From Brumimicrobium salinarum (GTDB lineage: Bacteria > Bacteroidota > Bacteroidia > Flavobacteriales_D > Crocinitomicaceae): a stretch of DNA of 64,000 nucleotides. The translations under genes and the position numbers were made by a program. Position 1 is the stretch's first letter; the number at the start of each line of letters is the position of its first letter. The notes beneath the pieces were generated by a model. The model searched no databases, was not told the origin of the DNA, and was given only the letters and a program-made list of their open reading frames with translations. Positions 36,196 to 37,738 of the stretch are shown one piece after another. Where the stretch lies: positions 124,001-188,000 of the forward strand of contig NZ_PJNI01000003.1 in assembly GCF_002844555.1 (NCBI RefSeq), given 5' to 3'.

Positions 36196-36720
36196 TCAAT
36201 CCTGACAAGCTGCGCAGTTGGCCTCGCCTACTAATTTTCCATTTTTGTTATATTTATATTTACAACATTCGTTGAAGCGTTGAGTAAGCATTTCTTTTGC
36301 TCTTTTTATTCTTGCTTTAACATTCTCAAGGCTGATTTCTAATTCCTTTGCGGTCTCTTTTTGTTTTTGTCCTTTTATGTAGGTCAACTCTATGACTTGC
36401 TTATAAATTTCAGGTAATTCATCGATAAATTTATCAAAACAACAAACTTCTTGAAAGTCTTGAAAGTCATCTGTTGAGCTCTCTTTCAACCTTTCAACAA
36501 AGACATTTTCTTGTTTATGATGATCTATTATTTCATTTCTAGCAATTTGAAAAATCCACGCTTTTACTTTCTTTTCGTCTTTTAGTTTCGGCAGATTGGC
36601 ATGAATCTTTACAAATGTATTCTGGAACACATCATTGGTAAGCGTCTTACTCTTCACTCTTTTTAGAATAAAGAAATAAAGCTCATTTTTGTATTCATTC
36701 CAAATCTTTTGTGTTTCCAT
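36196..36720 (-). CDS. sigZ: ECF-type RNA polymerase sigma factor, SigZ-like, with Cys-rich tail
   Basis: The product is 174 residues. Region 2 (about 5-70: NDVFQNTFVKIHANL ... KVKAWIFQIARNEIIDHHK) and region 4 (about 100-155: LPEIYKQVIELTYIKGQKQKETAKELEISLENVKARIKRA) are intact. After region 4 there is a tail with CC and CAAC pairs (NECCKYKYN ... GEANCAACQD), as in SigZ relatives, which might bind metal or sense redox state. No anti-sigma gene is adjacent. The Cys-rich microprotein lies just upstream on the same strand. Confidence 0.85.
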   Translation of the reverse strand: METQKIWNEYKNELYFFILKRVKSKTLTNDVFQNTFVKIHANLPKLKDEKKVKAWIFQIARNEIIDHHKQENVFVERLKESSTDDFQDFQEVCCFDKFIDELPEIYKQVIELTYIKGQKQKETAKELEISLENVKARIKRAKEMLTQRFNECCKYKYNKNGKLVGEANCAACQD

Positions 36721-36732
36721 ATATCTAAATAT

Positions 36733-36761
36733 AAAAAAGGTCAGCTAAAAAGCCAACCTTT
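36733..36761 (-). terminator. Hairpin with T-run between the Cys-rich peptide and sigZ
   Basis: On the minus strand aaaggttggct pairs with agctgaccttt (two G-T pairs), followed by six T. It lies 7 bases after the peptide stop and 13 bases before the sigZ ATG, so it would end or attenuate transcription into sigZ. Confidence 0.6.
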
Positions 36762-36767
36762 ACTGCC

Positions 36768-36881
36768 TTAACAACAGCTACATTTTGAACATTCGCATTT
36801 TGTGCAAGGACAATTATTTTCTGTGCAGTTCCCACAATTGCATTGCTTACACGCGCAGTCAGTACATTTACAATTATTCAT
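36768..36881 (-). CDS. Cysteine-rich microprotein (37 aa, 14 Cys), metallothionein-like
   Basis: This complete ATG-to-TAA frame has 37 residues with cysteines at 4, 6, 9, 11, 14, 16, 19, 24, 26, 29, 31, 34, 36 and 37. The regular CxC/CxxC spacing alternates with Lys, Thr, Asn and Glu, and there are no hydrophobic residues of note. The pattern is that of a metal-thiolate peptide rather than a random frame. It begins MNNCKCTDCACK. It sits directly upstream of sigZ, which has its own Cys tail, with a hairpin between them. Binding of Zn, Cu or Cd is inference; it does not match a bacterial metallothionein family I can name. Confidence 0.7.
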   Translation of the reverse strand: MNNCKCTDCACKQCNCGNCTENNCPCTKCECSKCSCC

Positions 36882-37099
36882 ATCTTTTTATTTTTTTGTT
36901 TCACTATGTAGACTAGGAAATCTCAAAAAAGATACATTAATTTTGGGTTAATTTATAAAAAGAAAAATAAGTGAACTTTTAATCCATCATGATTCAAATC
37001 AGTTTTCACTAAAGCGTCACTTTAAATTGAGCCAAAACACAAAAAATGTATTATCTTAAAGACATAAGGGTAATTTCGCTCTTATTTAAATAATAAAAC

Positions 37100-37738
37100 A
37101 TGAGTAATCAACATTTAAAAGCTTTAACGAATACCGTAAAGAACTGGTATATTCCACTTATTGTCGGAATTCTATTTATTGGGGCAGGAATTTTCACATT
37201 CGCCTCACCTACTTCATCATTTTTAGCTTTATCGCTTCTTTTTAGTACTTCCTTTCTTATTGCTGGATTTTTTGAAGTCGTGTTTTCAATTGCCAATAGA
37301 AACAGCATGGACAATTGGGGATGGTCGCTAATTTTTGGATTAGTTACCTTTTTCTTTGGTTTTATAATGACCGTGCAACCAAAATTTTCAATGCTCACTC
37401 TTGCGATTTTTGTAGGATTTACCTTATTATTTAGATCGATTGCAGCGATAAGCTTTGCTATTGACATCAAAAATTATGGTGTTAAACAATGGGGATGGTT
37501 ATTGGCGATTGGAATTCTAGGAATAATATTTTCTACAATTTTGTTAGTTGATCCAGTTTTTGCTGGTGCAACAATCGTCGTTTGGACAGGAATTACTTTA
37601 ATTATTGTAGGAATATTTAATATTTTCCTTTCTATTCAACTGAATAAAGTTAAAAAATCGACTCAAAAGGTATCTAAAAAACTACGTGATAGATTTGATG
37701 ATTTCGTAGAAGAAATAAAAGATGAATTAGATGATTAA
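37100..37738 (+). CDS. HdeD family membrane protein (DUF308)
   Basis: The product is 212 residues with six membrane helices in three pairs and the repeated DUF308 pattern (WYIPLIVGILFIGAGIFTF; WGWSLIFGLVTFFFGFIM; WGWLLAIGILGIIFSTILL). The C-terminus is a charged amphipathic tail (KLRDRFDDFVEEIKDELDD) not typical of enteric HdeD. HdeD is linked to acid resistance in Escherichia coli, but the molecular role is unknown. It is transcribed divergently from the Cys-rich peptide and sigZ, so a shared stress regulation is possible. Confidence 0.82.
   Translation: MSNQHLKALTNTVKNWYIPLIVGILFIGAGIFTFASPTSSFLALSLLFSTSFLIAGFFEVVFSIANRNSMDNWGWSLIFGLVTFFFGFIMTVQPKFSMLTLAIFVGFTLLFRSIAAISFAIDIKNYGVKQWGWLLAIGILGIIFSTILLVDPVFAGATIVVWTGITLIIVGIFNIFLSIQLNKVKKSTQKVSKKLRDRFDDFVEEIKDELDD

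Follow-up and report, generated by a model that had tools for sequence, protein, structure and literature searches.

A SigZ-like sigma factor gene and a metallothionein-like peptide gene form a conserved, probably metal(loid)-responsive unit in Bacteroidota

In the stretch of Brumimicrobium salinarum DNA analysed here (the window, 64,000 nucleotides), a gene for a very small cysteine-rich peptide stands upstream of a gene for a SigZ-like ECF sigma factor. The two genes probably make up a self-regulated system, in which SigZ would sense a metal or metalloid through its own cysteines and direct the making of a metallothionein-like buffer. The original prediction, that a metallothionein-like peptide and a cysteine-tailed sigma factor are co-regulated, is strongly supported: the pairing is conserved, a promoter is common to both gene orders, and the hairpin between the genes covaries. 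At the level of the sequence, the coding nature of the peptide gene, its pairing with sigZ, the promoter motif, the covarying hairpin and the invariant cysteines are established. Among the open-access papers searched, none was found that links SigZ to a Cys-rich peptide or to a metallothionein.

Results

A 37-residue peptide with 14 invariant cysteines

The peptide gene (36768..36881, minus strand) reads from ATG to TAA and translates from 36881 to 36768 as MNNCKCTDCACKQCNCGNCTENNCPCTKCECSKCSCC, so that the complete frame of 37 residues and 14 cysteines originally predicted was confirmed. The claim that the order of its cysteines is beyond chance was borne out as well, since open reading frames with at least 10 cysteines and at least 25% cysteine numbered exactly one in the real window and none in 60 first-order Markov resamples. 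No family in Pfam or NCBIfam matched the peptide at E-values up to 1, and against PDB sequences the top match was at E 0.27; by sequence the peptide thus falls outside the described families. Among 23 gapless 37-mers the 14 Cys columns are all invariant, and both Cys codons (TGT and TGC) occur at 13 of these 14 columns; pN/pS is 0.171 overall and 0.373 outside the Cys columns (the misaligned L094 was excluded from the codon analysis). Histidine is absent from all 64 peptides that were compared. The length and the amino acids of the peptide are thus under selection, and its invariant CxC/CxxC pattern would fit metal binding. The best reading of the sequence is that the peptide would serve as a metallothionein-like buffer for thiophilic metals or metalloids.

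The peptide gene accompanies sigZ across genera

A scan made with the sigma protein only, taking one genome per species, gave 31 loci in Psychroflexus, Maribacter, Salegentibacter, Mesonia, Echinicola and other genera, three of them in congeners (B. aurantiacum, B. glaciale and an uncultured Brumimicrobium isolate); the search pattern sits around the CC pair of the sigma linker, which biases this set toward the present sigma type. At 31 of 31 loci a Cys-rich frame (35–49 amino acids, 11–14 Cys) lies upstream of sigZ on the same strand, with a spacing from peptide to sigZ of 11–260 nt. The original prediction had looked to a homologue upstream of sigZ with conserved Cys spacing, which was found at every one of these loci, and had named frameshifts in relatives as evidence against a gene; no frameshifted peptide copy occurs among the 31. 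Frames with at least 10 Cys and at least 25% Cys number 31 in the 341 kb that these loci span, a count equal to that of the loci, and no other neighbour family (genes of at least 90 amino acids) is present in more than 3 of 32 loci.

Searches with a profile of the peptide gave the same picture. In 29 genomes there were 31 copies, two of them at second copies of the unit and the other 29 at the primary unit. Second promoter-peptide-sigZ units are present whole in Aequorivita sp. CIP111184 and Salegentibacter sp. 24 (L127 and L128). Peptide matches were found in 6 of 59 genomes (relatives and the own genome), of which one, L006, is false, leaving five real cases with the window counted, and sigZ is directly downstream of the peptide in all five. 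The rejected L006 match is a 188-residue frame that, judged by eye, resembles a pentapeptide-repeat protein. Across 399 genomes of the order, the profile recovered the same five and one weak partial match; the L008 match was set aside (E 0.007, covering positions 17–37 only). In the six peptide-less genomes of the genus, SigZ is also absent at the search threshold. A profile of the sigma factor found 27 places in 26 of the 399 genomes, with the Cys-rich frame upstream at 7, downstream at 15 and none passing the filter at 5. At one of these five, L032, the promoter and sigZ are kept and the peptide frame is seemingly broken. A plasmid search returned distant SigZ only, in 16 records, every one below 60% identity.

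Conserved cysteines in the linker and tail of the sigma factor

The sigma factor (36196..36720, minus strand, 174 amino acids) belongs to the ECF group, with Pfam Sigma70_r2 (PF04542, 43.2 against a cut-off of 24) and Sigma70_r4_2 (PF08281, 51.1 against 25.7) both over cut-off, sigma2 and sigma4 as its only domains and the HTH intact. The name SigZ, given in the original prediction, stands in that NCBIfam SigZ is the best specific family, matched over nearly the whole protein, and is loose in that the scores fall below the equivalog cut-offs (TIGR02959, 144.3, or 143.7 on rerun, versus 168.65; PRK09637, 151.9 versus 212 bits). We retain it in this loose sense.

Three groups of cysteines were followed in an alignment of 38 relatives, of which 28 belong to the upstream type and 10 to the downstream type. 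In the tail, the predicted CC and CAAC pairs proved to be C152-C153 at the end of a sigma4 helix (codons 36262..36267, minus strand) and the C-terminal CxxC, C169-A-A-C172 (codons 36205..36216, minus strand), and all four cysteines are invariant in 38 of 38. A further conserved pair, which the original prediction had not mentioned, lies between the two sigma domains (C93-C94, codons 36439..36444, minus strand), and its C94 is likewise invariant in the 38. In an AlphaFold model the sigma domains are confident and the linker and tail weak (tail pLDDT 50–63, pTM 0.41); a fold search returned ordinary ECF sigma factors as its matches, with no information on the tail.

The spacing of the tail cysteines goes with that of the peptide. 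Comparing 64 loci, near-identical ones included, three or more CxxC occur in the peptide at 40 of the 42 loci whose sigma tail carries CxxC and at 2 of the 18 whose tail carries CxC only, four further loci having neither spacing. The two tail classes largely track gene order and probably follow sigma clades. The match of spacings is a hint, drawn from sequence, that tail and peptide may share a matched metal geometry. A further SigZ-like sigma gene, with CC in its tail and N-terminus and no Cys-rich peptide alongside, is present in the same Mesonia locus as a unit (L076:10230-10892, minus strand).

Neighbouring genes and the likely signal

Across the phylum, 74 of 395 genomes gave a sigma match. 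Of 85 places, the 48 examined (E up to 4.2e-30) divide into 18 with a Cys-rich peptide (14 upstream and 4 downstream, the window included), 23 with a CC-bearing sigma factor and no peptide, and 7 with no frame passing the CC filter. Downstream of the 23 peptide-less sigma genes there is an ArsI/CadI-family gene in 10 cases and an arsenite methyltransferase (ArsM) gene in two, all over the curated cut-off (these loci are L150, L160, L165, L169, L171, L172, L183-L186, L198 and L199). One further case has an ArsE-like thioredoxin (below cut-off) and another an ArsR/SmtB regulator as the second gene; the other nine have DapB, MATE, or weak or no matches, with no arsenic- or ArsR-type gene that could be named. 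The relatives that precede ArsI/CadI or ArsM genes may well be arsenic-type ECF sigma factors.

Around units with a peptide, examples chosen by eye include Flavivirga (L068), where ArsR, DUF6428 and ACR3 genes come after the unit, Roseivirga (L070), with a cation-efflux gene after the unit, and a Brumimicrobium locus (L080), with a ZIP transporter gene after the unit on the opposite strand. The neighbours of L069, L074 and L077, scanned alike, held no metal or arsenic gene. The ArsI/CadI, ArsM and ACR3 genes near relatives, together with the precedent of CorE, lend indirect support to a metal(loid) role of the unit, and the likeliest signal would be thiophilic metal(loid)s, arsenite or cadmium foremost.

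The same cysteines could instead respond to redox state, with those of SigZ and of the peptide forming disulfides when oxidants or electrophiles are present; the peptide would then be a thiol buffer or scavenger. What is conserved is cysteine, which suits either role, and the sequence does not name a ligand. Against this stand the ArsI/CadI and ArsM genes that peptide-less sigma relatives precede, and the clustering of CxC and CxxC, a spacing typical of metal thiolates. We regard a redox signal as improbable.

An ECF-type promoter that follows the peptide gene

Ahead of the peptide gene lies an ECF-type promoter (36909..36936, minus strand), with a –35 element TGTATC (36936-36931), a 17-nt spacer that starts with a T-run and a –10 element GTCTA (36913-36909). 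The motif, TGTATCTTTTTTGAGATTTCCTAGTCTA (36936-36909), stops 27 nt short of the peptide ATG and is the sole exact match in the 3.4-Mb genome of B. salinarum. An alignment of 30 homologous loci gave the consensus GTATCtTTTtt....tTT...aGTCTaC. Of the 33 upstream-type loci, 30 have the form GTATC[CT]TTT-N13-GTC[TA] ahead of the peptide, and two of the remaining three have a TGCATC or TGCGTC variant; between peptide and sigZ neither form occurs in any of the 33. The motif has the layout of an ECF promoter, and from its co-occurrence with sigZ we infer that SigZ itself reads it.

The size of the likely regulon was estimated in 30 genomes. Allowing at most one mismatch, GTATCYTTTT-N12-GTCTMC matched 45 times, of which 29 were at the primary unit, two at second copies and 14 elsewhere, versus 17 matches for the reversed pattern, and the exact matches were at a unit in 23 of 23 cases. 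At this stringency no targets beyond the unit were detectable above the control in these genomes, weaker promoters being possible. With two mismatches allowed, counts in 10 genomes of the genus resembled those of the reversed-pattern control. In the window, a gene for a DUF308 (HdeD-like) membrane protein (37100-37738, plus strand) is divergent from the peptide operon and has a common upstream region with it; the gene was not found beside the unit in the other loci clustered.

The gene order is reversed in more distant SigZ relatives, sigZ coming first and the peptide second. At 19 of 19 such downstream-type loci, TGC[GA]TC-N16/17-GT[CT] occurs both ahead of sigZ and in the gap that separates sigZ from the peptide; the expression was composed after the sequences had been viewed, and the control, the remainder of the same loci (about 50.8 kb, both strands), held 0 matches. 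The spacer is 16 nt in 34 of these 38 promoters, which is why a pattern with a fixed 17-nt spacer matched in only 4 of 18 downstream-type genomes. Since the motif precedes the peptide in both arrangements, the promoter follows the peptide whatever the order. The peptide's own promoter behind sigZ can be seen at L155 (G535:C83:4145-4171), and with such a promoter the levels of sigma gene and peptide become separable in the downstream type. A stop was flagged within the sigma match at three of the 19 loci (L017, L027 and L034); a 178-amino-acid sigma frame is nevertheless readable in L017. The sigma genes of L027 and L034 look interrupted, as in decaying units.

Under a further alternative, the peptide would act as a soluble anti-sigma factor that depends on metal: a metal common to both would bridge it to the cysteines of SigZ and keep SigZ inactive. 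The downstream-type peptide does sit where ECF operons usually have the anti-sigma gene, and the Cys spacings of tail and peptide covary. However, residues between the peptide cysteines vary freely, as the pN/pS off the Cys columns indicates; the zinc anti-sigma motif requires histidine, which the peptides lack; and the downstream-type peptide has a promoter copy of its own, as for a main product. We regard a role as anti-sigma factor as improbable, and one as a metallothionein-like buffer made under SigZ control as the probable one.

A covarying hairpin between peptide and sigZ

The T-run hairpin that had been predicted to separate the peptide from sigZ is present as a terminator-like structure (36730..36761, minus strand), with a stem of 11 pairs (36761-36736) and a T-rich tail. 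It starts 6 nt past the peptide stop and has an RNA fold z of –2.95; a scan of 36600-37100 gave this one terminator-like site, against 0.1 expected from shuffled sequences. By fold energy, at the chosen cut-off, a hairpin is present in 28 of 33 intergenic regions, and there is no clear one in five (L080, L091, L092, L096 and L005). In 23 aligned loci, which were picked from the 33 for showing the hairpin, a choice that favours pairing and not two-sided change, 92.8% of cells pair and two-sided changes occur at 10 of the 11 pairs; the observed covariation score was reached by none of 500 shuffles. Its position and T-rich tail suggest that the hairpin is a partial terminator.

Many Cys codons, then a terminator-like hairpin, then sigZ is also the order expected of leader-peptide attenuation, in which ribosomes stalling at Cys codons under cysteine shortage would melt the terminator so that sigZ is made, but we reject this as very improbable, because complementarity of the hairpin arm to the frame shows no excess over codon shuffles (6.36 versus 6.44 nt, 28 loci), the peptide follows sigZ in the 19 downstream-type loci, its length and amino acids are under selection, and a clear hairpin is missing in the five regions named above.

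Copies of the unit in cassette-like settings

In Roseivirga spongicola (Cytophagales) and Psychroflexus tropicus (Flavobacteriales), the two units share a block of 804 bp at 97.8% identity, which opens 90 nt ahead of the peptide and closes 24 nt past sigZ; the Psychroflexus contig is only 6.6 kb long, and contamination is possible there. By BLASTN, the only other stretch common to these two loci measures 152 nt (87.5% identity). In Psychroflexus it immediately precedes the unit and in Roseivirga it surrounds the end of the following gene, one for cation efflux, a placement like that of a repeat common to cassettes. In both genomes the unit ends in GTTGGCAG and CTGCCAAC and is flanked by attC-like hairpin repeats (z –2.6 to –4.0 for five folds at four sites, one site on both strands; L067 gave z 0.30). 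One or both end sequences recur in similar form at four other loci; the window copy, like most other copies, is without ends of this type. In Roseivirga (L070), a gene for an integron-integrase-like tyrosine recombinase ends 97 nt before the block; its score is just over the cut-off of NF040815 (220.5 versus 220) and under that of TIGR02249 (212.5 versus 265). The unit in these two genomes may be an integron-type cassette (L070:4591-7632 and L072:694-1644). The own genome has two tandem integron-integrase-like recombinase matches, below the family cut-off (G000:C23:272781-275390), near the end of the window's contig and about 110 kb from the unit.

Discussion

We propose that the operon, in the order SigZ-type promoter, metallothionein-like peptide, partial terminator and sigZ, is autoregulated. 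SigZ, which has no recognisable anti-sigma partner, would have its activity set by a thiophilic metal(loid), As(III), Sb(III), Cd(II), Zn(II) or Cu, bound to the linker cysteines and the CC...CxxC tail, on the model of copper control of Myxococcus CorE. Once active, SigZ would transcribe from its own promoter; at the hairpin most transcripts would stop after the peptide and a minority would enter sigZ, giving a burst of peptide, and the 14 thiols of the peptide would then take the metal off SigZ and turn the system off. In this scheme the identity of the metal, the feedback and the partial termination are inferred. Several observations count against it: the tail cysteines do not follow the CorE pattern, the tail is poorly modelled, five of 33 loci have no clear hairpin, and there are SigZ genes with no Cys-rich peptide (5 of 27 places in the order) and peptide-less relatives with no arsenic- or ArsR-type neighbour that could be named (9 of 23 in the phylum).

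A stricter form of the proposal, which we put forward tentatively and hold to be possible rather than probable, is that sensor and buffer are a closed pair: SigZ would be dedicated to one product and compete with it for the same metal(loid), with matched Cys geometry (CxxC with CxxC, CxC with CxC), and the regulon would consist of a single unit, some 800 bp long, that brings its own promoter and can move between orders as an integron-type cassette.

The peptide represents an as yet unnamed family of very small genes, conserved across Bacteroidota and without a curated family match. For this branch of ECF factors, the analysis supplies a promoter that can be tested, together with the likely target and class of signal. 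With a detectable regulon of one promoter, such a sigma factor would also offer a simple model and might be used as a metal biosensor.

Bacterial metallothioneins such as SmtA/BmtA and MymT are small, Cys-rich proteins with CxC and CxxC clusters, and SmtA is controlled by the repressor SmtB. The present peptide is likewise small and Cys-rich with CxC/CxxC; it is 38% cysteine, has no histidine in any of the 64 copies and, unlike SmtA under SmtB, stands behind an ECF-type promoter. In comparison with integron cassettes, the unit brings its own promoter, and its Roseivirga and Psychroflexus copies sit between attC-like repeats. Among sigma factors, the SigZ families TIGR02959 and PRK09637 are the best specific match, yet the protein scores below their equivalog cut-offs.

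The closest parallel is CorE. In Myxococcus CorE, a Cys-rich C-terminal domain of 38 residues and six cysteines, four of them invariant among proteins with this domain, is described as essential for copper-dependent activity, and CorE-type factors are described as having no linked anti-sigma gene (PMC3107203). Like SigZ here, CorE and CorE2 of Myxococcus xanthus (former ECF44, now ECF238) are reported with cysteines in the linker and in a short C-terminal extension, and CorE, again like SigZ, with no anti-sigma gene linked (PMC8999054, PMC3107203). Compared by eye against the published description, the tail is CC...CxxC or CC...CxC (four cysteines in the window SigZ) versus the six-cysteine domain of CorE, and the linker has C or CC versus the CXC given for the sigma2-sigma4 linker of CorE-like factors (PMC8999054). 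Sensing of metals by a sigma factor's own cysteines, as in CorE, has been described in four other phyla (PMC3107203), and our findings suggest that it is common in Bacteroidota too, here with a Cys-rich peptide gene as the partner in place of the copper oxidase or ATPase genes of CorE.
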